IMG/VR virus record: IMGVR_UViG_3300020165_001224
Coordinates: 1-23,375 of that record
Length of the DNA: 23,375 nucleotides
Reading direction: 5' to 3' (one strand)
Source: a virus
The notes beneath the pieces were generated by a model, which was not told the DNA's origin, ran no database searches, and worked only from the letters and a program-made list of their open reading frames with translations. The position numbers were made by a program, and so were the translations under genes. Numbering within the stretch: the first letter of the stretch is position 1; each line of letters starts with the position of its first letter. Positions 1,652 through 23,375 of this stretch are shown here, piece after piece.

Positions 1652-2387
1652 TTTTAAATGCCCATTCTTTCTCATTACACCAGAAACATTTACCGCAAGG
1701 TTCTGTATAATGTTCGGTTTCTCCTGGAAATCCTACACATGAACTTGTATAGGGATAAAGGCTTTCCATTAGACCTTCATCTTTATATACTCCAGAAACA
1801 AATTTTTTATCTACATTAATATATGGTTGATACAGTCTGGTCTTCCAAGGGTTATTATCCCTAGTATCTCTTCGTCGTTCAGCTACATCGTAAAAACCAT
1901 ACTTGTGCTGATCTTCTACTGGCGGATTAGCTGTCATGCCCGTGACAATATATGATTCAGGATATTGTCTCAATATTCTGCCGGCGTTTTCTCTTAACAT
2001 TAATAATTTAACAAGACCTGATAAACCAGTGCATCTATCTACAATAGTTCCGTCCGGCATTGTTACTTTTTCTGATTCCCATTCATCCTCTGCCCTTTGT
2101 CTCCATTCGGGATCCATAATATCAAATGGATATACATCTTGCTCAGCTAGTTTACCATTAGGAAAAATTTCTCTCATAAGCTGAAGTATGTCAAGTGTAC
2201 ACTCATAATCCATAGGAGCTGTCTTATCTCTTCCCGTAAAAGGAATTACTTCAACTTCAGGAAAGAATTTAAGAATTAAATACAGTAAAGATGCTGAATC
2301 TAATCCACCCGATAGTGACAATAATACCTGTTTAGGTATGCCCTTGTCAAATAAATCAATAGTTTGATTTCCATAAGTTAGTTTCAT
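1644..2387 (-). CDS. QueC-like PP-loop ATP pyrophosphatase with C-terminal zinc motif
   Basis: 247 aa, starting immediately after the stop codon of the upstream radical SAM gene (TAG-ATG) with a strong GGGAGGG ribosome site. The N-type ATP-pyrophosphatase P-loop is SGGLDS at residues 26-31. Near the end lies C217-x13-C231-GK-C234-FW-C237, matching the four-cysteine zinc site of 7-cyano-7-deazaguanine synthase (QueC: SC...CGKCxxC), and the length is right for QueC. The order TGMTANPP, then a PYINVDKK strand, then SSC also follows QueC. However, the QueC substrate-region signature (YPDCRPEF) is not seen, and no other preQ0-pathway gene is in the window. It may therefore adenylate a different carboxylate or amide, for example in sugar amidation, as PP-loop enzymes in glycan operons do. 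PP-loop and zinc motifs are certain; the substrate is not. Confidence 0.7.
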   Translation of the reverse strand: MKLTYGNQTIDLFDKGIPKQVLLSLSGGLDSASLLYLILKFFPEVEVIPFTGRDKTAPMDYECTLDILQLMREIFPNGKLAEQDVYPFDIMDPEWRQRAEDEWESEKVTMPDGTIVDRCTGLSGLVKLLMLRENAGRILRQYPESYIVTGMTANPPVEDQHKYGFYDVAERRRDTRDNNPWKTRLYQPYINVDKKFVSGVYKDEGLMESLYPYTSSCVGFPGETEHYTEPCGKCFWCNEKEWAFKND

Positions 2388-3797
2388 CTAACCCTCCCAA
2401 AATTCTTCAAGTTCAGGAAATTCTTCAAATAAATGCATTTCCCATCTAGTACCAACATAAGCCTCATCTTGTTTTAAAAGATATTTCAAAACATCTTGTA
2501 TATTACAATCATTCTCAGGTGGCCTTTCAAGAGCTGCTTGAATATCTGGCCAGTCCTTATACAAAGGTATAAGTTTATTCTTAATTTTATACGGTAGATT
2601 ATTTACTCTTAAACCTTTAGGTCTTTCAATCATAGCCCAATTAATTTGGTGGATTTTAGGATTATCTTTACAGTAGTCAATGACTTTATGAAATCTCATC
2701 ACACTTAGAAATGATACCAAACCATTAAAATCCACAACAGTATTATCATATTCATTACAAATATCTATATTCTTTTCTACCTCATCCCAATCTGTTCTTC
2801 TTCGCATATATTCAATATCTCTACCAACACCATCAATAGATGCTACCATTGCAACTTTTTTAAACTTAGGAATATAATCAAAAATATTATGTCTTCCAGC
2901 TTTCATTTTTGTAAAATTGGTTTGATACTTAATGATAATATTTTTTGCTTCATCACATTCAATTAAGGCATCTAATAATTCATATTGCCTTTTCATTATA
3001 AGAGGTTCACCACCAATGATTTTAATACTTCTTGCATATGGAGCCAACTTTTTTATTTGCTCTAACATACCAACTGATCTATCTTTTAAGGCATTATTTA
3101 CATATTCAATTCTATTGTTATCCATTGGTCCAAATAACTCTTCATTCCAAACACCTTTTTTTACAGCCATATCCCACCGCATGGTAGAGTTAGCATGCAT
3201 ACACATATGGCAATCAAGGTTACATTCAGAGCCAAAGATTTTTAATTGTATTTCACATATTCTTTCATCAAAATAATATTCACCAGTTTCTCTAAAAAAT
3301 CTTGCAGTTCGTTCTATACCATCCCAGAATACAGGATCATTAGTATGCATTTTCATACAATTAGTTCTTCGAGATCGACCGTATCGCCTTTCATCTGATC
3401 TACATCTTTCGCATATTGTTTCAACAGCCTTGTAGTCTGAATTTGGATCTAACATTTCGCGGCGAATGCTATTCATGTATTCACTATTTTCCATCCAATC
3501 TTGAAGAGATACATCATCAATACTTACACGGGAATCTGAGCCAAAACAACAAGCTTGATAGTTACCATTTATTTCTGAATAAACTTGAGTCCAAGGAATA
3601 GAACAAAACCAAATGTTCTGATTTTTAGTTTGAGCTGTAATTGAGCTAGGATCTTCCATACTCTTTTCAATAGATTTACTTGTCTTATGAAACCATGCAG
3701 TAGTATCATATTCACCAGGTTTGGTTTTATCTCCCGGTCCACCTCGTTTCATATTATTTTCTATTACATCTAGTATATCTGAGTCAATGGGCTTCAT
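2388..3797 (-). CDS. Radical SAM enzyme with N-terminal SPASM/twitch-like cysteine region
   Basis: 469 aa. The [4Fe-4S]-SAM site is C192-NLD-C196-HM-C199, followed by the SAM-binding GGEP at 262-265. Unusually, an auxiliary-cluster-type cysteine region lies before the radical SAM core: C65 (CSIPWTQVY), C83-C84 (QACC) and C129-ER-C132, the pattern of SPASM/twitch domains that normally follow the core. Such proteins are usually annotated as twitch-domain radical SAM proteins and are common in marine phages; their substrates are unknown to me. The start is supported by an AGGTGA ribosome site, and a minus-strand late promoter lies about 30 nt upstream. It is the first gene of the minus-strand operon, so it is probably expressed late with the glycan-type genes. 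It may modify a peptide or a sugar; the sequence does not decide. Confidence 0.88.
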   Translation of the reverse strand: MKPIDSDILDVIENNMKRGGPGDKTKPGEYDTTAWFHKTSKSIEKSMEDPSSITAQTKNQNIWFCSIPWTQVYSEINGNYQACCFGSDSRVSIDDVSLQDWMENSEYMNSIRREMLDPNSDYKAVETICERCRSDERRYGRSRRTNCMKMHTNDPVFWDGIERTARFFRETGEYYFDERICEIQLKIFGSECNLDCHMCMHANSTMRWDMAVKKGVWNEELFGPMDNNRIEYVNNALKDRSVGMLEQIKKLAPYARSIKIIGGEPLIMKRQYELLDALIECDEAKNIIIKYQTNFTKMKAGRHNIFDYIPKFKKVAMVASIDGVGRDIEYMRRRTDWDEVEKNIDICNEYDNTVVDFNGLVSFLSVMRFHKVIDYCKDNPKIHQINWAMIERPKGLRVNNLPYKIKNKLIPLYKDWPDIQAALERPPENDCNIQDVLKYLLKQDEAYVGTRWEMHLFEEFPELEEFWEG

Positions 3798-3807
3798 TTA
3801 ATTCACC

Positions 3808-3815
3808 TATAAATA
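3808..3815 (+). promoter_or_regulatory. T4-type late promoter (TATAAATA), rightward
   Basis: Exact TATAAATA octamer in the 40-nt gap between divergent genes. With T4 spacing, transcription would start near 3821, just before the AGAGG ribosome site (3823-3827) of the gene at 3838. It overlaps the ribosome-binding region of the divergent minus-strand gene. Confidence 0.7.
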
Positions 3816-3827
3816 ATTATCCAGAGG

Positions 3828-3835
3828 TATTTATA
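3828..3835 (-). promoter_or_regulatory. T4-type late promoter (TATAAATA on minus strand), leftward
   Basis: TATTTATA on the plus strand, an exact TATAAATA on the minus strand. The predicted start near 3822 gives a leader of about 25 nt before the ATG at 3797. This promoter and the plus-strand one at 3808 face each other, so each transcript begins between the two boxes and crosses the other box. Confidence 0.65.
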
Positions 3836-3837
3836 AC

Positions 3838-4779
3838 ATGATTAAAAAAGCAGTAATAGAGATATGTGGTTCATGTAACTATACGTGTACCTTCTGTCCA
3901 CATTCTTTTGAAGGTGGCAGAGAAAAATCATTTAAAAGAATGATGAACTATAAGATGTTTGTTGATATGTTAGATCAATTAACAGATACAGAATGTGAAG
4001 AGATATATCTTGAAGGTTCTGGTGAGCCAACCATGAATAAGAAATTACCTGACTTTGTAAAAGCTGGTACTGATAGAGGATTTAAAATGTCCTTTATCAC
4101 TAACGGCTTCTGGTTTAAAGATGATCTTATGAAAAGAACCATTGATGCTGGTATGCACTTTGCTAGAGTTTCTGTTACGGGCTATAATCCTAGATTATAT
4201 AAAGAACAAATGAGTAAAGATGCTTTCTATGAAGTAATGGATAATACAAATGCTGCCATTGAATATGGTGGTAATATGGGTTCTTATCATTTAATCTTAG
4301 ATAACGACAACGTAAACTATGAGGCTAGTGAATACATATGTAACTGGATTAAACATGTTCCTGGGGTTAAGGCTTCTATATGGAAAATGCATAACTGGTC
4401 TGGTCAACTTGGCGTTGATTGGAGAATAGGTAAAAAGAAACGTAGCTGTGGTAGACCTTTCTCTCCTGATCTGATTGTAAGAGCAGGTGGTAATGGTGGT
4501 ATGACTGGTGCTGTTGTTCCTTGCTGTATGGTTTTAGGTCAAGATAGTAAAGGAGTATTAGGACACTTATCACACCAGACTATTGAGGAAGTATGGTATG
4601 GAGATGAATACAATAAACTAAGAAAAGCACATGAGATGCATGAATTTGATTCTATAGATTATTGTAAGAACTGCGACATGTTATATGATGCACCAGAGGC
4701 TTTGGTTTGGTCGAATTTTGATGCTGACTATAATACACTCACTGGTTCTTCTTTTACAATGGAACAATATAGAAAATGA
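3838..4779 (+). CDS. Radical SAM/SPASM domain protein
   Basis: 313 aa with the usual domain order. The radical SAM cluster motif is at the very N-terminus (C13-NYT-C17-TF-C20), then a GSGEP motif (60-64) corresponding to GGEP. The C-terminal SPASM-type region has C204, the pair C229-C230 (VVPCCMV) and C276-KN-C279, with the typical GVLGHLSHQTIEEVW segment between them. SPASM enzymes mostly modify peptides or proteins (sactipeptides, PQQ, mycofactocin) but some act on sugars or alcohols. An AGAGG ribosome site lies 10 nt upstream and a late promoter just before it. Its stop overlaps the next ATG (ATGA), so it is translationally coupled to the kinase-like gene. No precursor-peptide-like gene is directly next to it. 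Confidence 0.9.
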   Translation: MIKKAVIEICGSCNYTCTFCPHSFEGGREKSFKRMMNYKMFVDMLDQLTDTECEEIYLEGSGEPTMNKKLPDFVKAGTDRGFKMSFITNGFWFKDDLMKRTIDAGMHFARVSVTGYNPRLYKEQMSKDAFYEVMDNTNAAIEYGGNMGSYHLILDNDNVNYEASEYICNWIKHVPGVKASIWKMHNWSGQLGVDWRIGKKKRSCGRPFSPDLIVRAGGNGGMTGAVVPCCMVLGQDSKGVLGHLSHQTIEEVWYGDEYNKLRKAHEMHEFDSIDYCKNCDMLYDAPEALVWSNFDADYNTLTGSSFTMEQYRK

Positions 4780-5210
4780 ACATAGATAAAAAAAGAACTA
4801 GGATTACCGACTTTCATATTGTTAAAACAATTGAATATAAAGATAGCCCTGTCGAGACTGTTAAAAATTTAGAAAGATTGCATAAAGACAAATTTGAATT
4901 TATTAACATACCTTGGTTTAGATATGAAGTTTCTGGACACTCTCTTACAATTATATCAGAGTATATCAAAGGTAGATATATAGATTTATCTCATATGAAC
5001 TATCTTTGGAACGATGTTGTAATGCATAAAGGTGATTATAGTTTTCATGACTATCAGTTCTCAAATTTTATAGTTGATAAAGATAATAAAATATGGGCTG
5101 TGGACCTAGATGATTACTGCAAGATTAGTATATCAGATCGTGATAAAGATTGGCTAAAAATAAAAAATGAAGAAACATTGAGATTGAAGGAATTATGGAA
5201 CGCATTATAA
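4776..5210 (+). CDS. Minimal protein/aminoglycoside-kinase-fold protein
   Basis: 144 aa, start overlapping the previous stop (ATGA). Residues 56-66 (SLTIISEYIKG) look like the hinge strand of kinase/APH folds. Residues 91-97 (HDYQFSN) give the catalytic D-x4-N (D92, N97), followed by strand FIVD and DLDD (110-113) where DFG/DxD normally binds metal. The histidine sits at D-1 rather than the usual D-2. No glycine-rich loop or clear beta3 lysine is visible and the protein is about half the length of an APH-family kinase, so the N-lobe is greatly reduced. It could phosphorylate a sugar or small molecule made by the neighbouring enzymes, or be a kinase-fold binding protein. Fold call moderate; activity unproven. 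Confidence 0.6.
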   Translation: MNIDKKRTRITDFHIVKTIEYKDSPVETVKNLERLHKDKFEFINIPWFRYEVSGHSLTIISEYIKGRYIDLSHMNYLWNDVVMHKGDYSFHDYQFSNFIVDKDNKIWAVDLDDYCKISISDRDKDWLKIKNEETLRLKELWNAL

Positions 5211-5692
5211 TAGATGATTACTTAGATAAAAACGTATATGATATGTTATATAAAATGTATCAAAGTGCTAAAACTGGATCTGATGTAAAGAGAACTATGT
5301 TTGATTATGATCCTACTCCTGAAATTGCAGAACTTATCTATCTGTTTAGTCATAAAAGAAATTATGATAAACTAGCTAAGTTTATTCATACTGCTGCAAC
5401 TCCTCCTAATTACCATCACAGAATACATGATGAAGCAGAGTTTAAGATTATGTCTGCCATTGTTTATATCGGACCAGAAAAGGCACCAGGCACTACATTC
5501 TATATTGATGGTAATGAAGAAACTGTTGAATGGAAACCTAACAGACTAATGGTTTTTTGTGGAGAAACAAATGTTACTTGGCACGATTATAAATCAGATG
5601 ATAATATGAGGTTTACATATAATTATTTCTTAGTCGATCCTACAAAGATTGAGAACGAGACATACAAAAATCATGTTCTATATAAAATTTGA
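5195..5692 (+). CDS. 2-oxoglutarate/Fe(II)-dependent oxygenase-like protein
   Basis: 165 aa, overlapping the upstream gene by 16 nt. The double-stranded beta-helix signature is present: RIHDE supplies the first iron histidine and acid (H78 with E80, or D79), the strand MSAIVYIGP follows, then APGTTFYID, then KPNRLMVFCGETNVTWHD with the distal histidine H130, and R139 in MRFTYNYF as the likely 2-oxoglutarate-binding arginine. This is the arrangement of prolyl-4-hydroxylase-like and phage 2OG oxygenases, slightly shorter than the usual 190-220 aa. Such enzymes hydroxylate protein side chains, nucleotides or small molecules. The substrate is unknown; lysines of the phage's own collagen-like fibres are one possibility (see findings). 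Confidence 0.75.
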   Translation: MERIIIDDYLDKNVYDMLYKMYQSAKTGSDVKRTMFDYDPTPEIAELIYLFSHKRNYDKLAKFIHTAATPPNYHHRIHDEAEFKIMSAIVYIGPEKAPGTTFYIDGNEETVEWKPNRLMVFCGETNVTWHDYKSDDNMRFTYNYFLVDPTKIENETYKNHVLYKI

Positions 5693-6482
5693 TGAAAGAA
5701 CAGTTCAGGCTCATGCGACTATTATGAGCCAATTCTGCCATGTGTTATGGCGGATTCAAAGTATGTGCGAAGAAGGTCTTATAACAGATAAGGTAACTAT
5801 AAAGGTATTTGTGCCTATATTTTATAAAGGTTGTTATCATACACCTAACCATAAATATTCTTTTGACGAACAACTTAGATGGTTTATGGATAACTTTGAA
5901 GAACCTTCTTGTGGTGTAGAATGGATTGTAGAATTTTATGAAGAAACTTGTAATGTAACTTCTCCATGGAATGCACAATGTATTTGGCCATTTAAGAAAC
6001 AATGGGTAGGTGGAGGTGGTTACATTACTCTCCAGAAATATAAGAATTCAAAAGGCGGATATAATTATCATAGAAGAATGGCTGAAAAATCTGGTCAACT
6101 AGATATAATAGAAAATATAGAACAGTATTCTGATTATCCAGTTAAGATAGTTGACTACGAAATGCACCCTAGTGAACTAATTGATACTCTTATACATTCT
6201 GAGAAGCACTACACATATATGGGCGGCAGTTATTATACTGCAGCACTTATTAACTGTCCTACAATATGTTATGGGCATCCTACAGGTCACGTTTTTCCAG
6301 ATTCGCTTGAGGGTGAAGGCATGCCAGGTAGCGCATGGGGCGCCGTTATGGGTAATGGATTCTCTACAATATGTCAATATGATTTTAATAAAACCTATAA
6401 TGGTCCTCAGACATATGTTACCCATGCATCATCAGTAAATGATTTAAAAGGGTATCTATTGGAGTTACCACTACCCTTATAA
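5673..6482 (+). CDS. Unrecognised protein, possible GT-B-type glycosyltransferase
   Basis: 269 aa from the ATG at 5673 (MFYIKFDERTVQ), which overlaps the oxygenase gene by 20 nt. A TTG 24 nt earlier is less likely. The protein has a mixed alpha/beta pattern without signal peptide or membrane span. Near the C-terminus HYTYMGGSYYTAALINCPTI followed by CYG resembles the C-terminal signature of heptosyltransferase-like GT-B enzymes (Gly-Ser/Asp, then an Ala-rich helix, then Pro-hydrophobic-Gly). This resemblance is by eye and weak. The N-terminal half contains an aromatic- and cysteine-rich stretch (about residues 75-105) that I cannot place. Context among sugar- and side-chain-modifying enzymes favours a transferase. 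The stop codon lies inside a late-promoter box. I do not recognise the gene with certainty. Confidence 0.4.
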   Translation: MFYIKFDERTVQAHATIMSQFCHVLWRIQSMCEEGLITDKVTIKVFVPIFYKGCYHTPNHKYSFDEQLRWFMDNFEEPSCGVEWIVEFYEETCNVTSPWNAQCIWPFKKQWVGGGGYITLQKYKNSKGGYNYHRRMAEKSGQLDIIENIEQYSDYPVKIVDYEMHPSELIDTLIHSEKHYTYMGGSYYTAALINCPTICYGHPTGHVFPDSLEGEGMPGSAWGAVMGNGFSTICQYDFNKTYNGPQTYVTHASSVNDLKGYLLELPLPL

Positions 6483-14102: not shown

Positions 14103-15893
14103 ATGGTACAAAAGCTAAGTGATCATCTAAATATTAGCCTAGGGTTGGCAGCACAAACCGACTCTGCAGATGTTCTTGCTATTATTAGAGAAACAAACAT
14201 TGCTATGGACTCCGGTACCATGGGTGATTTTGTTGCGACTATTGCTGGTAAAGGATCTGATGCAGGTATTACAGTTCTCAACTCTGGTACTAATAATGCA
14301 GATGTTCAACTTAGATTAGACTCAGCTGTTGCTGCTACTCTTACAGGGTCTCAAACACTTACTAATAAAACAATTAACCTTACAAACAATAGTTTGACTG
14401 GTACTATTGGTCAGTGGAATGCAGCTCTGAGTGGCGGTAACTCTTTCACAACATTAATTGGTACTGAGACACTTACTAACAAGACACTGACTTCTCCTGT
14501 TCTTAATACAGTTGATATCAACTCTGGTGCAATTAATGATATTAGTACATTCTCACTTAGAGATGCTACTGTAGCAAGCTATGAACTTTTACTTGCAGCA
14601 AACAGTTCAGTTAACGCAAGTGCTGATAGAACATTAACCTTTGATGTAAAAAATGCTAATAGAACTTTAAGTCTATTAGGTAACTTAACCCTTGGTGGTT
14701 CTCTTACTACATCTGGTGCATACGGAACTACACTCACAGCAACTGGTACTACATCAGTCACGCTACCAACATCTGGTACTCTTATATCAAAAGATGGTAG
14801 CAATAATGTAACTGGTATTAATAATATTACAGCCACAGGCACTGTTGATGGCAGAGACTTATCTGTAGATGGTGATAAACTTGATCTAATTGAAGCTCAA
14901 GCAGATGTTACTGATGCTGGTAATGTTGGGACTGCTTTAACAGCATTTTCTACAGGTACTGATGCAACAGGTTCAGACCTTATACCGGTATATGATGCCT
15001 CAGCAGGTACATGGGAAAAGCAAACTATTACTAATGCATCCTTGCAAGGACCTGCGGGTGGAACTGGTGCTAAAGGGCAAAAAGGTCAAGCCGGTTCTAT
15101 TGGTGTTGACGGTGATGCAGGTGCTAAAGGGCAAAAAGGTGAAGTTGGTCAAAAAGGTGCGGCTGGTTCTAATGGAGCTGCCGGTGCTAAAGGACAAAAA
15201 GGTGAAGTCGGAGCCAAGGGTGCAGCTGGTTCTAATGGAGCTGCCGGTGCAAAAGGTCAAAAGGGTCAAAAAGGTGAGATTGGTGAATCTGGTTCTGGTG
15301 CATCTGGTGTCAAAGGCCAAAAAGGTGAAGTCGGTGGAACTGGTGGAACTGGTGCTAAAGGTCAAAAAGGCGACGGTGGAGCTAAAGGACAAAAAGGTGT
15401 ACCTGCATCATCTATCACAAATACAACTGCTCCAGGTGGAGCTGTAGACGGTGATCTTTGGTGGGACGAGGAAACTGGTGCTCTATATATTTACTATAAT
15501 GATGGCACTTCAAGTCAGTGGGTACAATTTAATAATGCAGTTGTTCCAGACGGATCTATAACAGGAGCCAAACTTGTTGATGACTCAGTCACTGCAGCTA
15601 AACTGGCTGATAACTCTGTTGATTCTCAACACTATGTTGATGGTTCTATTGATAGAGTACACTTAGCAGCTGACATCGTTGATGGTACTAAGATTGCTAA
15701 TGATGTAATTAACTCCGAACACTATGCAGCCGGATCTATAGATGCAGAACATTTAGCATCTAATTCCGTAACACAAGTCAAACTTGCAGATGATGCTGTT
15801 GGCGCAAATGAATTAAAATCTGTCGTATCCTTTGTAGTGTACAACTCAGCAGGTACAGCACTCAAAACCATATACGGCGCAGGAGGCACATAA
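14103..15893 (+). CDS. Tail fibre with collagen-like stalk
   Basis: 596 aa. The N-terminal third is an alpha/beta adaptor plus shaft with two LTNKT repeats (LTGSQTLTNKTINL and IGTETLTNKTLTSP). Residues 316-434 form a collagen-like G-X-Y tract of 39 triplets with one two-residue interruption. After it comes a small globular segment (APGGAVDGDLWWDEETGALY, with YYNDGTSSQWVQFN) and a shaft of short repeats built on 'DxSV..akLAD.SVDSqHYvdGSID..HLA'. Such repeats form triple beta-helical rods in phage fibres. The end YNSAGTALKTIYGAGG is short and compact. A ribosome site AGGAAA precedes the ATG. Probably a trimeric host-contact fibre. All lysines of the collagen part are in Y positions. Confidence 0.85.
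   Translation: MVQKLSDHLNISLGLAAQTDSADVLAIIRETNIAMDSGTMGDFVATIAGKGSDAGITVLNSGTNNADVQLRLDSAVAATLTGSQTLTNKTINLTNNSLTGTIGQWNAALSGGNSFTTLIGTETLTNKTLTSPVLNTVDINSGAINDISTFSLRDATVASYELLLAANSSVNASADRTLTFDVKNANRTLSLLGNLTLGGSLTTSGAYGTTLTATGTTSVTLPTSGTLISKDGSNNVTGINNITATGTVDGRDLSVDGDKLDLIEAQADVTDAGNVGTALTAFSTGTDATGSDLIPVYDASAGTWEKQTITNASLQGPAGGTGAKGQKGQAGSIGVDGDAGAKGQKGEVGQKGAAGSNGAAGAKGQKGEVGAKGAAGSNGAAGAKGQKGQKGEIGESGSGASGVKGQKGEVGGTGGTGAKGQKGDGGAKGQKGVPASSITNTTAPGGAVDGDLWWDEETGALYIYYNDGTSSQWVQFNNAVVPDGSITGAKLVDDSVTAAKLADNSVDSQHYVDGSIDRVHLAADIVDGTKIANDVINSEHYAAGSIDAEHLASNSVTQVKLADDAVGANELKSVVSFVVYNSAGTALKTIYGAGGT
15048..15404 (+). repeat. Collagen-like G-X-Y coding repeat (39 triplets)
   Basis: Encodes residues 316-434 of the fibre. 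The dominant unit is GAKGQKGEV, with GSNGAA spacers. A 21-aa block is repeated with a 63-nt period (starting near 15165 and 15228). One interruption (GS) lies after GEIGES. The only prolines are in the first triplet (GPA) and the last (GVP). All 17 lysines occupy the Y position. Confidence 0.95.
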
Positions 15894-15896
15894 TAA

Positions 15897-16964
15897 ATGG
15901 CTGCTATTAATTTTCCAAGTTCACCAGCAAACGGTGCCACTCATACAGCGAATAATGTAACATGGGTATTTGAATCCGCTAAAGGGGTATGGAGAGCTGC
16001 TACATTTGCCGATGCACCTACTGGAGCCAAAGGCCAAAAAGGTGAGAAAGGCCAGAAGGGTCAAACGGGTGACACTGGAGCCAAAGGTCAAAAAGGACAG
16101 ACTGGTAGCACGGGTTCAACCGGTTCAACTGGGGCTAAGGGACAAAAAGGCGAAGTAGGAAACACAGGTTCAACTGGGGCTAAGGGACAAAAAGGACAGA
16201 CTGGTAACACGGGTTCAACCGGTGCGAAAGGTAATACAGGAAACACAGGTTCAACTGGCCAAAAAGGTCAAAAGGGTGAAGTTGGCCAAAAAGGTGCAAC
16301 AGGCTCAACTGGTTCTACTGGTAGCACTGGCTCTAAAGGTCAAAAAGGTGATACTGGGAATGTTGGAGGTAGTAACATTGATATTACCAATATCGGCATT
16401 TTCTCTAATGCTTCATCTAACTGGACTGGTGATCCAGGCACAAAAGGTAAAATTCAATACCACTCAAATAGATGGTATATTGTTGCAGACTCATCTTCAA
16501 ACAGAATTGTTCAGTTTAGAAGAAACAACTCCGATGTATCGTATGTTGATAACTCAGGTATCTATCAAGGTACTGCAGCATCTGCTAACTGGTCTGACCT
16601 TGCGGAGAAATATTTAGCTGATACGATATATGAACCAGGTGATCTTTTAGGTATTGGCGGTAATGAAGAAGTTACAATCTGGCAAAAAGGTATGCCGGTT
16701 GCAGGTGTTATATCTACATTGCCTGGGCTTAGAATGAACGTATCTGAAGAAAATAAAGAGGATCCGCTATGGCCCTTTATTGCTCTGAAAGGACGTATTC
16801 CTTGTAAGATAAATGGTACTGCTCAAAAAGGCGACTATATAGTAGCAGATGATAATGGTAAATGTAAAGCAGTTACTGTCGAACGTGCTTCTGAAATACA
16901 CTTCTTACATTATATTGGTGTAGCTTTAGAGGACGGTGAAGGAATAGTTGAGGTTAAAGTATAA
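15897..16964 (+). CDS. Second collagen-like tail fibre with 'DLAEKYLAD' C-terminal domain
   Basis: 355 aa. A strong AGGAGG ribosome site lies inside the end of the previous gene. Residues 1-40 (INFPSSPANGATHTANNVTW, then VFESAKGVWRAA) form a short adaptor found at the start of many phage fibre proteins. Residues 43-156 are 38 perfect G-X-Y triplets. The C-terminal 200 residues contain ANWSDLAEKYLADTIYEPGD and LLGIGGNEEVTI, a domain common at the end of marine phage fibres and reminiscent of intramolecular-chaperone-type fibre ends; no autoproteolysis motif is certain. It probably trimerises through the collagen helix. Its stop is fused to the next start (TAATG), coupling it to the first Cys/His-tailed protein, so the two may form parts of one fibre. 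Confidence 0.85.
   Translation: MAAINFPSSPANGATHTANNVTWVFESAKGVWRAATFADAPTGAKGQKGEKGQKGQTGDTGAKGQKGQTGSTGSTGSTGAKGQKGEVGNTGSTGAKGQKGQTGNTGSTGAKGNTGNTGSTGQKGQKGEVGQKGATGSTGSTGSTGSKGQKGDTGNVGGSNIDITNIGIFSNASSNWTGDPGTKGKIQYHSNRWYIVADSSSNRIVQFRRNNSDVSYVDNSGIYQGTAASANWSDLAEKYLADTIYEPGDLLGIGGNEEVTIWQKGMPVAGVISTLPGLRMNVSEENKEDPLWPFIALKGRIPCKINGTAQKGDYIVADDNGKCKAVTVERASEIHFLHYIGVALEDGEGIVEVKV
16023..16364 (+). repeat. Collagen-like G-X-Y coding repeat (38 uninterrupted triplets, no proline)
   Basis: Encodes residues 43-156. Triplets are mainly GQK, GAK, GST, GNT and GQT. By my count Y positions hold 16 Lys, 19 Thr and 3 Val; no Lys is in X and there is no Pro at all. The nucleotide sequence has locally exact copies (for example around 16126-16152 and 16167-16193). 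Confidence 0.95.
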
Positions 16965-17374
16965 TGCCAACCTATGCGCAACTTAACTCAAGTTTACAAT
17001 CACAGTGTGGTGGGCAGTTAAGAACATTTGATAAAACAGCAACAACTACGGTTACTGCTTATATTAGAGTTTATGGTACAGATAATACATTCGGTGCTGT
17101 AATGGCTTCACAAAACGGACCTACATCATCTAGTGGATTTAACCATAGATTTGAATATGTAAACGCCAATAATACATTATATGCAAATTATCTTGATAGC
17201 GGAATTGCTACTGGTTCAAGAATATATAGTCAAGATGTTATTGACTCAATCAATAATACATTAAATAGAACAGTTACCTTAATCGAAGGTAGAATAACAA
17301 ATAGATCAATCAGTGCTTTATTATGTCACAATAGTTGCCACAGTAGTTGCCACACATCAAGAGGTAGACGCTAA
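16964..17374 (+). CDS. Small Cys/His-tailed virion-type protein, copy 1 (candidate modification substrate)
   Basis: 136 aa, start overlapping the fibre stop (TAATG). The body is hydrophilic and strand-rich (AYIRVYGTDNTFGAVMASQN, and FEYVNANNTLYANY), with one Cys at residue 15 (QCGGQL). A predicted helix (SQDVIDSINNTLNRTVTLIE) leads to the C-terminus, where residues 121-136 read CHNSCHSSCHTSRGRR: three CHxS units with 4-residue spacing and a basic end. No signal peptide. About 60% of positions are identical to the following gene by my count. It follows a collagen-type fibre and precedes radical SAM genes in the same coupled operon. I infer a fibre-tip or tail protein whose C-terminus binds metal or is enzymatically modified. 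No named family is recognised. Confidence 0.7.
   Translation: MPTYAQLNSSLQSQCGGQLRTFDKTATTTVTAYIRVYGTDNTFGAVMASQNGPTSSSGFNHRFEYVNANNTLYANYLDSGIATGSRIYSQDVIDSINNTLNRTVTLIEGRITNRSISALLCHNSCHSSCHTSRGRR
17324..17371 (+). other. (CHxS)3-RGRR C-terminal motif, copy 1
   Basis: Codes for residues 121-136 of the first small protein. The Cys residues are at 121, 125 and 129, each followed by His, which would put all Cys on one face of a helix. The last four residues are RGRR before the stop. Confidence 0.9.
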
Positions 17375-17790
17375 TGGGTAATATGTCAAGAGATAGTGTT
17401 GACAGCTATATTCAAACATATTGTGGTTCTCAGCTAAGAGGTTTTGATAAAACTATCAGCTATTCAGTGAATGCTTATATTAGAGTTTATGGTACGGACA
17501 GTATATCTGGTGCTGTAATGGCTTCACAAAACGGACCTACAGCTAATGCAACTGTAAACCAAAGATATGAATATGTGAATGCTAATAATACATTATTTGA
17601 TAACTATATTGATGGCGGCGTTTCAGCCGGATCAAGAGTATATGCTCAAGATATTGTAGATACAATTGAAGATGGAGTGAGACGTGCAGTTGATTTAATT
17701 GAAGGTAGAATAAGTAACAGATCGTGGAGTACATTACTTTGTCATAATAGTTGCCATAGTAGCTGCCACACATCAAGGGGAAGACGCTAA
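17374..17790 (+). CDS. Small Cys/His-tailed virion-type protein, copy 2 (tandem paralogue)
   Basis: 138 aa, coupled to copy 1 by TAATG and to the first radical SAM gene by another TAATG. The alignment with copy 1 needs no gaps apart from two extra N-terminal residues. Strongly conserved parts are CG.QLR.FDKT, AYIRVYGTD, GAVMASQNGPT, EYVNANNTL, LIEGRI.NRS and the whole tail from LLC onward (residues 121-138). The strand regions and the helix (AQDIVDTIEDGVRRAVDLIE) vary, as expected if two subunits pair or face different partners. The invariant tail inside a diverged body points to selection on the CHxS unit. Function is unknown; see copy 1. Confidence 0.7.
   Translation: MGNMSRDSVDSYIQTYCGSQLRGFDKTISYSVNAYIRVYGTDSISGAVMASQNGPTANATVNQRYEYVNANNTLFDNYIDGGVSAGSRVYAQDIVDTIEDGVRRAVDLIEGRISNRSWSTLLCHNSCHSSCHTSRGRR
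17740..17787 (+). other. (CHxS)3-RGRR C-terminal motif, copy 2
   Basis: Codes for residues 123-138 of the second paralogue. The amino acids are identical to copy 1 although several codons differ (for example CAT for CAC, AGC for AGT, AGGGGA for AGAGGT). This indicates conservation at the protein level rather than a very recent DNA copy. Confidence 0.9.
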
Positions 17791-18956
17791 TGTCTATGCA
17801 AAAATCATATTGTAAGCAGATGAGATATTCTGGGCCAGAAAGCCTAGCACCGTCTGATGCAACAAAGTTTGATGTTCTCATTCAAATGGAGGTTCTTGCA
17901 GGGTGTGATCACGGCTGCTTGGGTTGCTTCGTTGATAAGAATATTGATCCAGCAATGAATCAAATGATCATTGACAGAGCTAAAGAACTTACTGATGGAG
18001 TAAAGCGTACTGGATTAAACCTACGTGAATTTGTTATCGGACCAACAGATTTCTTTACAGCAGAAAATACAGAATCCGTATTAAACAACTCAGTAGTTCA
18101 AGAGATTATGAGAGAACATACTGGAGCACGTATTGCTGCACCAGCTAAGTTTGATAAAGTTTCTATGGATAAACTTGAGCACATTTTCTCTATTCTTGAT
18201 GATGAAGATAAGTATCGTAAAGAAATGATTATTGAATTTATTATGCCAATTGGTAGAGTAGGTGAAATGTTAGATGATGACGATTACTTTGATGAAGTAA
18301 TGCGTAAAGTTGAATTCTTTAAGAACGATACACCTAAACAAATGGATTGGTCTTGGACTCTTCAAGCATCAAATGTTGTTGGTAAAAAGATTGATAAAGA
18401 AACATATAATAGAATTATTGATAAATCAGTAAATGAATATAATACTATTGTTGAGATGAATCCAGCTTTCTCTCGAGCGCGTAGTCAATTAATTAAAAGA
18501 AGTAATTTGTTTGCTTGGAATAATTTCCTTGGAAAAGTAATTGATGAAGATAATGCTAATAAGACAGTAATGTCTATGGCTAATCTTTACTGTAATTCAA
18601 TTAACTTTATTGGATTAACTATTGTACCTGGAGAAAATGGACCAACAACACATCTAAACGTAATGCTGCATGAGCAAGCATTTTTCTTAGATAATAAAAA
18701 CCTAGATGTGACTGGGCTTACCTTTGAAGAAATCCTTCAGAGAAAAAATGAGCTAGTTACTAAAGGGATAAATAAATCAAGTAAAGTAAAAGACTGTTCT
18801 GATTGTCAATATGCTGTTGCTTGTGCTAGCCGTCTTATCTTTGAGGCGCAAGACTCACTTAATATTGATGGGTGTGTGCTTAATAAAGATATTCTTGAGC
18901 ACTACAATCCATATGACTTTACTTGGAACGATGATGCTGAAAGGGCAATGGGATGA
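17790..18956 (+). CDS. Radical SAM enzyme A (CxxxCxGCF / IGPTD subfamily) with C-terminal auxiliary-cluster cysteines
   Basis: 388 aa, coupled to the Cys/His-tailed genes by TAATG. The radical SAM site is C39-DHG-C43-LG-C46-F; where most families have GGEP it has VIGPTDFF (82-89). The C-terminal region has C336-x2-C339-x5-C345-x16-C362, fit for an auxiliary Fe-S cluster of SPASM/twitch type. After it comes a 26-residue acidic tail. Enzymes of this architecture generate a 5'-deoxyadenosyl radical and often crosslink or epimerise residues in peptides. No RRE (precursor-binding) domain is recognisable in the N-terminal 30 residues. It is the first of four related enzymes in the operon and immediately follows the candidate substrates. 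Substrate assignment is inference. Confidence 0.85.
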   Translation: MSMQKSYCKQMRYSGPESLAPSDATKFDVLIQMEVLAGCDHGCLGCFVDKNIDPAMNQMIIDRAKELTDGVKRTGLNLREFVIGPTDFFTAENTESVLNNSVVQEIMREHTGARIAAPAKFDKVSMDKLEHIFSILDDEDKYRKEMIIEFIMPIGRVGEMLDDDDYFDEVMRKVEFFKNDTPKQMDWSWTLQASNVVGKKIDKETYNRIIDKSVNEYNTIVEMNPAFSRARSQLIKRSNLFAWNNFLGKVIDEDNANKTVMSMANLYCNSINFIGLTIVPGENGPTTHLNVMLHEQAFFLDNKNLDVTGLTFEEILQRKNELVTKGINKSSKVKDCSDCQYAVACASRLIFEAQDSLNIDGCVLNKDILEHYNPYDFTWNDDAERAMG

Positions 18957-20053
18957 TTGGTCAAAATTTATACTATCTAAACAACACAAAATATATTTCA
19001 AATGTTACCAATTTGGAAACCGTGATTGGTGAACTTAATTCTTACTATCATACTAAGACGCCAAGAAATATTGTGATTGTTCAACCATCAAGTGGTGCAA
19101 GATTAACAGAAGGACAGTATACTGAACTTGCTAGATTGCAACGTACAGATGCTCCTGATCTTATTACCTTTATGGAGTGGGATGCTGTTAACACTATTTC
19201 ATATATTCAGAATAGTGATAAGAGAATACTTTTATTTGCTACTGAAGAGGATATGCTTACTGTTTATGTAAAATATACAGCAGGACTATTAAAAGCATGT
19301 GGTTGGTATGATTCAGCAGATGATACTGACGGATGGGCAGCAGACTTTATTGAAGCTACACTTGCAATGGATGTAATGTTTACATATATGCAAGCTTCTG
19401 AAACCCTTGGTGATATCTCAGATTTCTGTGATAATATTCTTAATCGTAGTGCTGATTCAGATGGTGGTGCCTATGTGGTAACATATCAGAATGGTAAAAA
19501 CTTTAGCTACGATTTACTATTCTGGCTTAATGATAACCATAGAAATGCTTCAGTACAAGCTTTAATCAAAGAAAAGTTCACTGTACACCAGTCTGTAATG
19601 GCTCAGGATGTTATGGAACACTTTACATCAAGACGACACTATATGGCATATATTCTTTCTGTTATTGATTGGATGAATGCAAATACTGCTCGTAATTCTG
19701 CGTATGCTACTAATAAAAAAGCCTGGGTTACAGACTGTTATATTACAAAAGCTAATGCAGGTAACTATACAGCTGCTTTCTATAAGTTAGAAGAATTGTG
19801 GAATCTAGTTAAAGATGATACAGCCTTTATTGCAGCACACCAAGATAAAGCAGATAGTGATGCAGACGGCTGGGAATATATGGATCTATACACAGAATTT
19901 AAAAATGTGTTTCCTATTGTTCGTAAGGTTCTACAAAACGACTTTGATATGGATAACTTAACAGCTGATTTAAAGTTGATAAATACAGATGTACAATTCT
20001 TCTCAAAGAGACAGAATCGTATCCCCTATCTTATCCACAAATATCCATTGTAA
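18953..20053 (+). CDS. Unrecognised 366-aa protein in the radical SAM operon
   Basis: The start overlaps the preceding stop (ATGA). I do not recognise a family. Residues 1-110 look alpha/beta: strand NIVIVQPSSGARLT, helix GQYTELARLQ, then strand KRILLFAT. The rest is largely helical, with many Asp and aromatic residues and a stretch GKNFSYDLLFWLNDNHRN near residue 180. There are only three Cys and no signal peptide, membrane span or catalytic motif I can name. Because it sits between radical SAM enzymes with coupled translation, it may be a partner that binds the substrate or an enzyme, or a virion-assembly protein. No further function is supportable. Confidence 0.75.
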   Translation: MIGQNLYYLNNTKYISNVTNLETVIGELNSYYHTKTPRNIVIVQPSSGARLTEGQYTELARLQRTDAPDLITFMEWDAVNTISYIQNSDKRILLFATEEDMLTVYVKYTAGLLKACGWYDSADDTDGWAADFIEATLAMDVMFTYMQASETLGDISDFCDNILNRSADSDGGAYVVTYQNGKNFSYDLLFWLNDNHRNASVQALIKEKFTVHQSVMAQDVMEHFTSRRHYMAYILSVIDWMNANTARNSAYATNKKAWVTDCYITKANAGNYTAAFYKLEELWNLVKDDTAFIAAHQDKADSDADGWEYMDLYTEFKNVFPIVRKVLQNDFDMDNLTADLKLINTDVQFFSKRQNRIPYLIHKYPL

Positions 20054-20066
20054 GGAAAATTTTATT

Positions 20067-20819
20067 ATGCAAGAGCTTGATATTAATCAATGTTATGAGT
20101 TACCCTTAGCTCCTCAACACCTTGTTCAAATATATAAAGACAAGGAGTCTATAGAGGACTATATCCTTTGGGTTGACTATGAAAAAACAAAAGAAAAGTT
20201 ATCACCTCAGCATATTATTATCTACCTTGCTAATACTAACTTTAAAACAACTTTCTCTGCAATTGACGATGATCTAATTAAAGCATATATTCAATCTGAC
20301 TTTATGGTAGACTGTCCCTTGTTAGCTCGTATTGTTGTTCTTCTTATTAAAGTAAAATACCAACACGAAATATTTGGTCAGGAAGCAGAGCTTCTACCTA
20401 TCTTTGATATGGAAAGATTAATTAAGTTTAATGAACAAAACGAAGAACTTATGGATAAATTGGTTGCCACTGTTGCATCTAGTGTACCATTTGCTCTCAG
20501 TAAATTCTATAATGGTTTACCACCAGAGATTAAAGAAAAAGAAGTAAATCTAACTGACTTTTTGGACCTTGTAGAAGTTACGGATGCTCCACCTCCATGT
20601 GGACCTAACATTGCTAGACTGCTTACTGTTGGATTTGATGCTCTATTACTTATTTTAAGTAAGGAAGGCTTATCTGTAGAATACAACAAACAGCTATATA
20701 ATGATTCTCCAAAGTATTTTGGAAAGGATCTTTATTTTATTATGTGTGAAACTAAATTGACAGATCAGATTATATCTTTCTTCCCAGAGGACTTTATTTT
20801 AAATGCGAGTGCAACTTAA
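20067..20819 (+). CDS. Unrecognised 250-aa protein in the radical SAM operon
   Basis: I choose the ATG at 20067 (MQELDINQCYELPLAP) because an AAGGA ribosome site lies 10 nt upstream and this removes a 65-nt overlap that an upstream in-frame ATG at 19989 would need. The protein is mostly helical and acidic. It has a hydrophobic helix LLARIVVLLIKVKY near residue 90, probably buried rather than membrane-spanning, and a helix LLTVGFDALLLILSKEGL near 190. A Pro-rich turn DAPPPCGPN lies at about 173-181. No catalytic motif is recognised. It is the only gene of this operon with a 13-nt gap instead of an overlap. It overlaps the next radical SAM gene by 17 nt, and a role as partner or chaperone of the enzymes is possible. 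Confidence 0.75.
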   Translation: MQELDINQCYELPLAPQHLVQIYKDKESIEDYILWVDYEKTKEKLSPQHIIIYLANTNFKTTFSAIDDDLIKAYIQSDFMVDCPLLARIVVLLIKVKYQHEIFGQEAELLPIFDMERLIKFNEQNEELMDKLVATVASSVPFALSKFYNGLPPEIKEKEVNLTDFLDLVEVTDAPPPCGPNIARLLTVGFDALLLILSKEGLSVEYNKQLYNDSPKYFGKDLYFIMCETKLTDQIISFFPEDFILNASAT

Positions 20820-21825
20820 TGGTTCATATGCTGGGTATTATTCATATGATCCAGAACACAGCCCTATTAATCAGGACTTTCTGAGAACAGAAATAAATCT
20901 GGATATACTCCATGGCTGTGATCAGATGTGTCCTGGTTGTTTTATTCCTCGTAAAAACTTAACTAATCCAGATCAACTAAAAAATCTATATGAGCTTTTA
21001 GTTAAAGGCGATTACCATCCAGACGAAATTGTAATCGGACCAACTGACATCTTTGATGCTCAGAACTTTAATGAAATTATGAATCATCCTTATATGAAGA
21101 AACTCTATGAGATTTCTGCAATTGGATATACATCCACACTTTTACAAGATTATGATTCTATACACTATAAACTTAAAAAGATATGGGATCTGTATTATCA
21201 TATTAAACGTATTCCGGATATAGATTTTAAGATAGTTTTAGACGTTAATAAGTACCTTGACAATGAGTTGGACGATTGGTACAGAAACCTCGAGCTGTTT
21301 AAGAGTGGTTCTGTACAGTTTAGAGTAAATTATACTAAGGATGTATTCAACCGAATTGGTTATAATGAATTATGTGAAAGAGTATACAAAGACTTTAATG
21401 CTCCAGTTGTAATAACTCCATCGTTTCTTACAGATAGAAATGCAAGAGGTAAGGTTGAACAATATCTAAGTAACTTCCGCAACGATATGCTTGCTCAAAA
21501 AATAGATCCTAAATGGCAAAATCTTTATACTTTCTTTGATGCTAAGTTTAATGGTTTTGGTTGCCAAAATTATAGTTTCTATAATGGTAAGTTGTATGTT
21601 AACCCTTTTCTATATGATGCTATTATACAAAGAACACCATTCTTTGAAACAACTATGGATGAGAATAAACTATATCAGAATATTGAATATGCTCAACAAG
21701 TAGACGACTGCAATGGTTGTGAATTTATGATGAGTTGTGCTGAAAGAAATGTGCATATGTATATGGAGTCACGGAACATAGATCAGTGTGTCGCGATGAA
21801 AGAATATATGCATGCCTCTCATTAA
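20803..21825 (+). CDS. Radical SAM enzyme B (CxxxCPGCF / IGPTD subfamily)
   Basis: 340 aa, start overlapping the previous gene by 17 nt with AGAGG as ribosome site. The cluster motif is C39-DQM-C43-PG-C46-F, at the same residue numbers as enzyme A. EIVIGPTDIFDAQNF follows at about 75-89. The auxiliary cysteines are C303-x2-C306-x5-C312-x16-C329, with spacing identical to A and C. Before them, LYVNPFLYDAI matches YLSPFMYENMA of enzyme C, so B and C are closer to each other than to A. It ends soon after the last Cys, without the acidic or basic tail of A and C. It is presumably a cytosolic peptide- or protein-modifying enzyme acting during late infection; the substrate is inferred from gene order only. 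Confidence 0.85.
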   Translation: MRVQLNGSYAGYYSYDPEHSPINQDFLRTEINLDILHGCDQMCPGCFIPRKNLTNPDQLKNLYELLVKGDYHPDEIVIGPTDIFDAQNFNEIMNHPYMKKLYEISAIGYTSTLLQDYDSIHYKLKKIWDLYYHIKRIPDIDFKIVLDVNKYLDNELDDWYRNLELFKSGSVQFRVNYTKDVFNRIGYNELCERVYKDFNAPVVITPSFLTDRNARGKVEQYLSNFRNDMLAQKIDPKWQNLYTFFDAKFNGFGCQNYSFYNGKLYVNPFLYDAIIQRTPFFETTMDENKLYQNIEYAQQVDDCNGCEFMMSCAERNVHMYMESRNIDQCVAMKEYMHASH

Positions 21826-22969
21826 GAACAATTTATATTACGAACTTACCACAGAGACACAGACAAAGCCAGTATCTGCAGTAAAGATACAGCTTGATGT
21901 ATTAGATGGTTGCCATCATAAGTGCCCTGGTTGTTTTGTACATCGCAGAGGTAATGCTAGTGATGAACATCAGTTAGATAAAGCAAAAGATTTTATAAGA
22001 AGCATAACAGATCAGGGAATCTTGGTTGATGAGATGCTTATTGGACCAACTGACTTTCTTGCATCAGAAAACTTCTATGAAGTGATGCCACATCTTCTGG
22101 ATATCATTAACGAAAACTCACCTATTCTTGCATTTGTATCTACACTTATTGATGGAGATATAGAAAGATTTGTTGAGTTTATTAATGAACATGTTAATCT
22201 TGATACAGAAATAGAAATTGGTATTGCAACAAATCCTTACAAGTTTTTTGAAGAAAAGTATTTACAACACATTAGTGATATGTTATACTATATTGATCAA
22301 AATGTAAAGCATGAGGTTACATATACATTTGTCGTAAATATAAGAGATTATGGTTTAGATTATACTACACTACATGATAAAGCAGTAGAGAAGTTTCAAA
22401 CAATTCTTGACTTTGTACCTTCGGTATCAAGATCACATAAGCCTAATATTATTCTTGCAACACTAGATAAGTTTAATGAATACTTTAATGTATTAAGTCT
22501 TGATACTAAACTAAACAATATCATGGTAGATCATTCACACGCTGGTATGAATTATCAGGTTCTAAACTATAAGAAAGGCGATTGGTATCTAAGCCCATTT
22601 ATGTATGAAAATATGGCTATCTATGATCCTATGTTTAAGATAGAATCCTTTGACGATGTATATACAAATGTAGATACACAGATAGAAAGAGCAAAGGGAA
22701 CAGAATGTGAAAACTGTCCATTATTTACATCTTGCTATAACAGAAAGATTATATTATTAAGAGATTACTTAGGTGTGGATAGATGTATTGCTCCGAAAGA
22801 GAATATGCTAAGGAATATACATAACTATAACGGACCAGCTCAGACTATGTATGAATGGGATGGCTATTCTGTTGAAAACGATAAGAATGGTTATAGAAAA
22901 AGATTTTTAGTTACCAAAGATGATGATCCAGAATTAGAAAGATTGAGGAAAATTTCATATGTTAGTTAA
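21812..22969 (+). CDS. Radical SAM enzyme C (CxxxCPGCF / IGPTD subfamily) with charged C-terminal extension
   Basis: 385 aa, overlapping enzyme B by 14 nt. The cluster motif is C34-HHK-C38-PG-C41-F, then EMLIGPTDFLASENF, and auxiliary cysteines C299-x2-C302-x5-C308-x16-C325. A C-terminal extension of 60 residues (beginning IAPKENML, with YNGPAQTMYEWDGYSV and a charged end) is absent from B. It could contact a partner such as the small protein encoded next, whose start overlaps this gene by 11 nt. The enzyme core between the two cysteine regions is alpha/beta barrel-like in its strand/helix rhythm. Having several similar enzymes suggests successive or residue-specific modifications, but the sequence does not show which residue each would act on. 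Confidence 0.85.
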   Translation: MPLIKNNLYYELTTETQTKPVSAVKIQLDVLDGCHHKCPGCFVHRRGNASDEHQLDKAKDFIRSITDQGILVDEMLIGPTDFLASENFYEVMPHLLDIINENSPILAFVSTLIDGDIERFVEFINEHVNLDTEIEIGIATNPYKFFEEKYLQHISDMLYYIDQNVKHEVTYTFVVNIRDYGLDYTTLHDKAVEKFQTILDFVPSVSRSHKPNIILATLDKFNEYFNVLSLDTKLNNIMVDHSHAGMNYQVLNYKKGDWYLSPFMYENMAIYDPMFKIESFDDVYTNVDTQIERAKGTECENCPLFTSCYNRKIILLRDYLGVDRCIAPKENMLRNIHNYNGPAQTMYEWDGYSVENDKNGYRKRFLVTKDDDPELERLRKISYVS

Positions 22970-23153
22970 ACCTAAAAGAGTAATGATTGATCCACCTAAC
23001 GGATGGAGATATGGCTTTCCTAAGATGCTGCCTTTAATTCCAAAAGAAGGAAAGAACTTTAGATTAAAAGACTGGCTAATTCAAGAAGGTTATCCGCCAC
23101 ATGAAATAACGGATAATCCTAACTTTGCTTGTCGAATGTGGGAAACTGATTAA
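22959..23153 (+). CDS. Small conserved-looking 64-aa protein between radical SAM genes
   Basis: Start overlaps enzyme C by 11 nt and its stop overlaps the next start (TAATG), so it is translated within the operon. The sequence has a Pro/aromatic core (IDPPNGWRYGFPKMLPLIP), then a helix-turn segment NFRLKDWLIQEGYPPHEI, and ends FACRMWETD with a single Cys. The Pro-Gly-Trp composition looks like a compact, non-enzymatic fold. Similar short 'DPP.GW.YGFPK' proteins seem familiar to me from T4-like marine phages but I cannot give a function. It may bind a radical SAM enzyme, given its position, or be an unrelated small phage protein. Confidence 0.65.
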   Translation: MLVKPKRVMIDPPNGWRYGFPKMLPLIPKEGKNFRLKDWLIQEGYPPHEITDNPNFACRMWETD

Positions 23154-23375
23154 TGTTAAATGACGAATGGAAAAATATTGTAGCCAAGGGCCATAAGCTT
23201 GAGGAGTTTACTGCTGTATCATCCATGAGTCAATATAAAATACAAGTCAATCTTGAAATACTTGAGGGCTGTTCTTATATGTGCCCTGGTTGTTTTGTTA
23301 AACGTAAAGGCAATTGGAATCCAAACTCTATTGCAACATTTCACTCTTTGGCACTTGAGTTAAAAGATAGAGATG
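23153..23375 (+). CDS. Radical SAM enzyme D, N-terminal part (cut by window end)
   Basis: The frame is open from the ATG at 23153 (MLNDEWKNIVAKGHKLEEF) to the window end, 74 complete codons. After a beta-strand KIQVNLEILEG come C40-SYM-C44-PG-C47-F and VKRKGNWNP, closely matching enzymes B and C (the Cys motif followed by basic residues and an Asn). The stop of the 64-aa gene overlaps this start (TAATG). The IGPTD and C-terminal cysteine regions lie outside the window, so completeness cannot be judged. It is the fourth member of the same subfamily in one operon. Confidence 0.85.
   Translation, partial: MLNDEWKNIVAKGHKLEEFTAVSSMSQYKIQVNLEILEGCSYMCPGCFVKRKGNWNPNSIATFHSLALELKDRD

Follow-up and report, generated by a model that had tools for sequence, protein, structure and literature searches.

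The window, by which we mean the whole stretch of DNA analysed (23,375 nucleotides; IMG/VR virus record IMGVR_UViG_3300020165_001224), encodes two adjacent paralogous proteins that end in the same Cys- and His-rich tail, with a tail-fibre gene directly upstream and radical-SAM (rSAM) enzyme genes directly downstream. The position of these enzymes immediately after the tail genes is the key fact of the locus, and it was absent from an earlier, sequence-only reading of this DNA. In the list below, "GC-type" is our own name for rSAM enzymes with a GC-x3-C-x-GC core.

15897..16964, + strand: collagen-like tail-fibre protein, encoded just before the tail pair (Pfam Collagen, 2.1e-18; PHROG tail fibre, 4.4e-34)
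16964..17374, + strand: putative substrate protein 1 (136 aa) with C-terminal CHxS tail (weak PHROG 35144 match)
17324..17371, + strand: tail 1, CHNSCHSSCHTSRGRR, the end of substrate protein 1
17374..17790, + strand: putative substrate protein 2 (138 aa), 63% identical to protein 1
17740..17787, + strand: tail 2, CHNSCHSSCHTSRGRR, with the residues of tail 1 and different codons
17790..18956, + strand: GC-type rSAM enzyme 1 (GCDHGCLGC core; terminal CxxCx5C...C), by family HMM, conserved columns and a weak Pfam Fer4_12 match
18953..20053, + strand: partner protein of ~360 aa, family A6/A7, without known relatives (A6 or A7 in 89/111 loci)
19989..20819, + strand: partner protein of ~250 aa, family A5 (PHROG 20767), without known domain (100/111 loci)
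20803..21825, + strand: GC-type rSAM enzyme 2, by family HMM and conserved columns
21812..22969, + strand: GC-type rSAM enzyme 3 (Pfam Radical_SAM 7.3e-5, under the curated cut-off), by family HMM and conserved columns
23150..23375, + strand: GC-type rSAM enzyme 4, start only, as the window end cuts the gene (HMM 8e-23; whole copies in relatives)

The C-terminal tail

Both tail ORFs of the window terminate in LLCHNSCHSSCHTSRGRR and a stop codon. Over these last 18 residues there is no amino-acid difference and 6 of the 18 codons differ synonymously, while a pairwise comparison of the two proteins gives 63% identity. The sequence-only reading had proposed a shared end on two diverged paralogues, encoded by different codons, and both points were borne out. 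Its figure of about 60% for the bodies was right as to divergence and slightly off the measured 63%, and the interval that it gave for the tail feature, 17324-17787, does hold the two real tails but covers tail 1 plus all of paralogue 2. In the window's own body family the mean column identity is 44%, and invariant columns fall almost entirely within the tail.

Residue conservation was assessed in 127 distinct proteins gathered by enzyme-based (reverse) searches, in which the tail was not used as a query. C1, H2, C5, H6, C9, H10, R13, R15 and R16 are invariant in these tails, apart from one with a single inserted residue, which upholds the earlier claim of strong protein-level selection on the C-H pairs. 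The residue x that follows each His is variable (A, S, T, N, G, Y or Q). At i+2, Ser predominates, Asn is occasional, Ala and Gln are rare, and Gly is absent from register-correct tails. Because Gly is common at x, its absence at i+2 does not reflect a bias against Gly as such (p about 1e-15, as a guide only, since the sequences are related). This pattern fits bond formation at the beta carbon of the i+2 residue, with which it is compatible and of which it is no proof; among the known products of rSAM enzymes are bonds from His C2 to Ala or Arg C-beta and from the His ring nitrogen to Tyr C-beta (PMC11002830). The enzyme set is present without an R-x-R-R end in a few loci (L063, L136, L146 and L213), and the role of RGRR is thus not absolute.

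Occurrence in phages and cellular genomes

The exact pattern CHxSCHxSCHxSRGRR was found in 42 stretches in an IMG/VR scan, in all 42 as the last 16 residues of an ORF before the stop. We rejected a coincidental motif on the grounds of this C-terminal placement in 42/42 exact matches and of the reversed CHxS...RGRR pattern, which has no match within the record. When RGRR was not required, in two looser IMG/VR scans, the set grew to 195 distinct CHxSCHxSCH-containing ORFs. Of these, 147 have a CHxxRGRR end, about 30 match by chance through simple repeats, and most of the other real ones end in RSRR, RARR or similar. The general form, CHxSCHxSCHxS-R[G/S/A/N]RR, closes unrelated bodies of about 110-300 residues. 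The bodies cluster into two large families, of 87 and 76 sequences, and a number of small families; only three body families align with one another in profile comparison. The motif is widespread and conserved, being found in well over a hundred phage records, and the ground on which the sequence-only reading would have been refuted, a rare or unconserved motif, clearly does not apply.

Cultured phages with the tail infect Burkholderia (phage SURPRISE13, = S13; tail protein gp072), Pseudomonas (DT01; gp065), Agrobacterium (Atu_ph07; gp170) and Sinorhizobium (Phosso). The Burkholderia phages FLC6 and FLC8 also have it, with a tail protein that is 88% identical over its full length. A tblastn search of the named phages with either window paralogue gave no match, and these phages were reached only through the enzymes and the exact motif, not through the window bodies.

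Two variants of the tail deserve mention. On two phage contigs of 240-250 kb (L180:7817-8512 and L181) the tail has grown into long CHSSCHSNVPV... repeat arrays, which still terminate in CHSARGRR or CHSNRGRR. A 504 kb virus record (L146) encodes at 545-1138 a divergent tail, CHTNCHSSCHSSCHSSCHGSSGGW, which lacks R-x-R-R; this very large phage has kept a TEAC-like enzyme (see below) and an A5 partner despite the divergence.

Among 84,980 bacterial and archaeal genomes, scanned with a pattern that required a CGN codon for the first Arg, the motif occurred twice, both times in Bdellovibrionaceae MAGs.

Contig DDVI01000089.1 (L060/L356/L357), Bdellovibrionaceae UBA2316: complete cassette and tail
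Contig JAHBUU010000170.1 (L061/L358), Bdellovibrionaceae MAG: complete cassette and tail

One of these cassettes has cytochrome oxidase and acyl-CoA ligase genes on its flanks and for this reason looks chromosomal. Both adjoin S74-domain fibre-like genes, one of which encodes a pilin-type N-terminal methylation motif.

The enzyme cassette

The GC-type enzymes of the window share the GC-x3-C-x-GC core and a C-terminal CxxCx5C...C, and are interleaved with the two partner proteins. The window end falls inside the cassette, and relatives show its full extent: 9-10 rSAM genes, a cupin, 2OG-Fe oxygenase-type genes and the two orphan partner families. The first half runs from the fibre gene through two tail proteins to five GC-type rSAMs, A6 (~360 aa) and A5 (~250 aa). 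The second half, usually on the opposite strand, has the rSAM families CGQ, CYL, CSS and TEAC, each labelled by its core motif, together with a small conserved protein, a cupin and a 2OG-oxygenase-family protein. A 25.6-kb record encoding the identical substrate has the TEAC (SPASM) enzyme downstream. In the layout of jumbo phages, a cupin and the TEAC rSAM precede one tail protein, and the remaining enzymes follow. Usually the tail gene has the SPASM (TEAC) enzyme gene as its immediate upstream neighbour. A B12-binding rSAM is part of some cassettes. The largest families of conserved neighbours contained no recognised protease, exporter or transporter, and no RRE-like leader-binding domain was found. 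In SURPRISE13 (L003:10105-11282), two dihydrofolate reductase genes lie inside the rSAM cassette.

The TEAC alignment has an invariant CxxxCxxC and a full, invariant set of SPASM Cys, and the TEAC enzyme passes the cut-offs of both TIGR04085 (SPASM; 31.9 bits, cut-off 27) and Pfam Radical_SAM (32.8 bits, cut-off 29.5). Among annotated families it comes closest to DynA, anSME, YhhB and PapB, in each case far under the cut-off, and its closest PDB relatives are anSME, CteB, ChlB, YydG and SuiB. TEAC is a family of its own among the protein- or peptide-modifying enzymes. A 151 kb virus record (G009, the record of L150) encodes two full-length TEAC enzymes, at 29116-30156 and 58769-59764, and this phage possibly carries two complete tail systems of different type.

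The GC-type family conserves CxxxCxxC and the C-terminal Cys by column analysis, has one member in the window with a weak match to Pfam Radical_SAM (23.4 bits, cut-off 29.5), and aligns by profile with a clear SPASM enzyme family at 76% probability. Profile searches of the PDB gave no credible relative for the GC-type families A1 and A2 or for the partner families A5 and A7, and A5 has no Pfam match. We dismissed a "LicT" match of 18953-20050 as noise (20 bits, cut-off 300).

Association of tail and enzymes

Tail and cassette co-occur in both search directions, and because many loci come from phages related by descent, none of the counts in this section are independent. In the forward direction, the fetched DNA had a match to any rSAM HMM in 166 of 174 tail loci and in 0 of 31 control contigs, the controls being contigs of similar length from relaxed scans (L191 included) whose match lay in a simple repeat or in the wrong context. 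In the reverse direction, a search with the TEAC alignment alone found the tail in 73/80 loci. Five of the other seven are on contigs that end too soon (L237, L263, L267, L285 and L288), L295 has a variant tail, CHAQCHSSCHNSRGRR, and L275 shares its contig with L328, which carries the tail. The first GC-type enzyme of the window, used as a single-protein query because the family alignment is too diverse, led to the tail in 45 of 46 loci; the one remaining, L339, lies on the same contig as L045, which has it. Searches of whole records found TEAC in 29/30 tail records (the exception is a fragment) and in 0/9 controls. The association spans unrelated bodies, records of 37 to 504 kb and several gene orders, with a single or doublet substrate on the same strand as the enzymes or on the opposite one.

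Comparison with known systems

Three known rSAM systems resemble the one described here. Hxs (HxsA with the rSAM proteins HxsB and HxsC, and HxsD) likewise has C-terminal H-x-S repeats and more than one rSAM encoded alongside, but the phage tail has an invariant Cys before every His, an R-x-R-R end and a fibre-gene setting. Eight tail proteins of different body types gave no match to an HxsA-type or other NCBIfam model, the maturase models scored far under their cut-offs (HxsB, 23.7 and 21.5 bits against 370; HxsC, 30.7 against 267.9), and none of the cassette proteins scanned, from SURPRISE13 or from the window, matched HxsD. An HxsA4 match of the fibre protein at 15897-16964 was rejected as stemming from its collagen-like repeats. 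The CXXX-repeat system (TIGR04115) also combines a Cys at every fourth residue with an rSAM/SPASM enzyme, whereas in the phage tail the second position is always His, the body is large and several enzyme families are present; the maturase model gave 21 bits against a cut-off of 350.

Triceptide-type enzymes join an aromatic residue or His at position i to the C-beta at i+2. The enzymes of triceptides, daropeptides and dynobactin (YhhB, HaaB, DarE and DynA) are rSAM/SPASM proteins and include the nearest annotated relatives of TEAC. Those systems, however, pair one enzyme with a small secreted peptide, unlike the phages, with up to nine or ten rSAMs, 2OG oxygenases and a phage-protein substrate, and scores against the 3-CyFE family models stay far below the cut-offs (YhhB, 46.2 bits against 445; DynA, 49 against 450; FxsB, 36 against 370). 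As judged by the models tested, the system would work like a RiPP-type rSAM system yet stand outside the Hxs, CXXX-repeat and triceptide families.

The papers found on jumbo and marine phages list enzymes of the cassette type individually, unlinked to a tail motif (PMC8066314, PMC11898562, PMC5332604, PMC5468394), and one T4-like genome has 12 rSAM genes (PMC5332604). In the open-licence literature we found no paper connecting these genes with the tail and no description of such tail remodelling for any virus. PHROG 35144 (a tail protein) and 20767 (a partner) are without function annotation.

Fibre context and probable virion location

The fibre family encoded directly upstream of the tail pair recurs, again upstream, in 68 of 111 non-redundant loci. 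Within the window, the two tail-fibre proteins encoded in succession at 14103-16964 have long collagen-like Gly-x-Lys-Gly repeats. In two loci a recognised domain follows the tail motif: an S74 chaperone domain in L076:2489-3430(-) (PF13884, 1.5e-11), and a Hint domain in L105:1-1236(-) (PF05203, 2e-15). S74 chaperone domains are typical of self-cleaving phage fibres, and Hint domains are of the self-splicing type. After cleavage by either, the motif would lie close to a new C-terminus, so that these self-cleaving domains may serve to expose it. At L221:5041-6288(+) the motif is followed by a Pro-Thr-rich linker and a Hint-like end that Pfam does not recognise.

The cultured phage Atu_ph07 offers a link to the virion. 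According to the published report, most virion proteins found by mass spectrometry fall in CDS 31-76, 170-215 and 284-329 (PMC6102473). CDS 170 encodes the tail protein and opens the cluster CDS 170-215, and rSAM genes 165-168 sit just outside it, by the cluster limits given in the report's text. We take this as indirect proteomic evidence for a place in the virion, and consider it likely that the tail protein is located in the virion or fibre.

Proposed maturation of the tail

We propose that the phages encode a RiPP-like maturation cassette dedicated to the CHxSCHxSCHxS-RGRR tail as its target, and put the probability of this at roughly three in four. A small protein made beside the tail-fibre genes carries the terminal tail. 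The rSAM/SPASM and rSAM-like enzymes, the oxygenases and the two partner proteins would then act on it; following the usual reasoning in the field, the near-perfect co-occurrence makes the tail a very likely target of these enzymes. The invariant C-terminal R-x-R-R would serve as a recognition or follower element, and RGRR is probably the recognition end. The product is the least certain part: the likeliest chemistry would be His(i)-to-C-beta(i+2) three-residue crosslinks on each H-x-[S/N/Q/A], with the three invariant Cys oxidised further or joined in thioethers, and we advance the crosslinks only tentatively. The modified tail, rigid or metal-binding, would be displayed at the tip of a fibre or baseplate protein for contact with or passage through the Gram-negative envelope, and we judge the chances of a function in adsorption or entry to be evenly balanced.

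Among the three roles guessed for the tail in the sequence-only reading, it is modification or crosslinking that the evidence favours over the others, as the tail is nearly always encoded with an rSAM cassette. If the C-H pairs, unmodified, bound Zn, Fe or Cu at the tip of a trimeric fibre in the manner of HxH or PAAR-like sites, with the rSAMs acting elsewhere, the invariance of Cys and His amid varying neighbours and the fibre genes around the tail gene would be accounted for. The constant company of the enzymes in both search directions, the invariant R-x-R-R and the order of SPASM gene followed by tail gene would not, and we regard such a tip as distinctly improbable. A related idea accepts the modification and differs in its purpose, with Cys and His turned into a chelator or redox cofactor for metal or electron chemistry rather than stiffening. 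The Cys-His-rich sequence agrees with this, as do the many Fe-dependent enzymes, including 2OG oxygenases, the cupin and the B12-type rSAM, and copper-binding, His-crosslinked RiPPs are known (PMC10206099); nothing separates it from plain crosslinking, and on balance we think it rather unlikely.

The RiPP-like architecture, with Hint after the tail in L105 and a self-cleaving S74 in L076, could also suit a tail that is cut off as a small bioactive peptide, either an antibacterial or a superinfection factor, the body being a leader only. Against this, the bodies are large, conserved and set among fibre genes, the body gene opens the Atu_ph07 virion-protein cluster according to the text of the report (PMC6102473), no protease or exporter family was found among the conserved neighbours, and S74 or Hint cleavage would expose the tail as the C-terminal end of the body without releasing it. 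A released peptide is accordingly improbable. Mere co-location in a late-gene block inherited together would draw on the many loci from related phages, but it is scarcely credible when bodies without detectable similarity, in records of 37 to 504 kb and in several gene orders, still come with the enzymes, and when two bacterial MAG contigs likewise combine the two.

Returning to enzymatic maturation, we believe that the tail is very probably chemically remodelled. In its most far-reaching form, which we hold to be somewhat doubtful, a complete multi-enzyme rSAM pathway (as many as nine or ten rSAMs, with 2OG oxygenases, a cupin and sometimes a B12-rSAM) would build an unprecedented covalent structure on a virion fibre-tip tail, needed for entry into Gram-negative cells, and a relative in a predatory bacterium would employ this cassette next to its prey-recognition fibres. 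Phage virion proteins are normally regarded as built of ordinary amino acids. If the proposal is true, many phages, cultured jumbo phages included, chemically build part of their host-contact apparatus, and the long-listed, unexplained rSAM genes of marine and jumbo phages are accounted for. It would also provide a source of new peptide-crosslinking enzymes and a clear prediction for mass spectrometry on existing laboratory virions.

Bdellovibrio recognises prey with phage-like S74 trimeric fibres, the MAT proteins (PMC10769870). The present system resembles these in its fibre-gene context, in one S74-ended tail protein and in the two Bdellovibrionaceae cassettes, and differs in that an rSAM-modified tail is not reported for MAT fibres. 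By analogy only, the parallel supports a role in Gram-negative cell contact, and it is possible that in Bdellovibrionaceae the system acts on the predator's fibres.

Finally, we note that the window has a second, different enzyme block at 779-6482, which lies before the structural genes and is not related to the cassette HMMs. It comprises a twitch-domain rSAM that scores above the NF033640 cut-off, an rSAM/SPASM protein, a QueC-like protein and an ORF resembling oxygenases.
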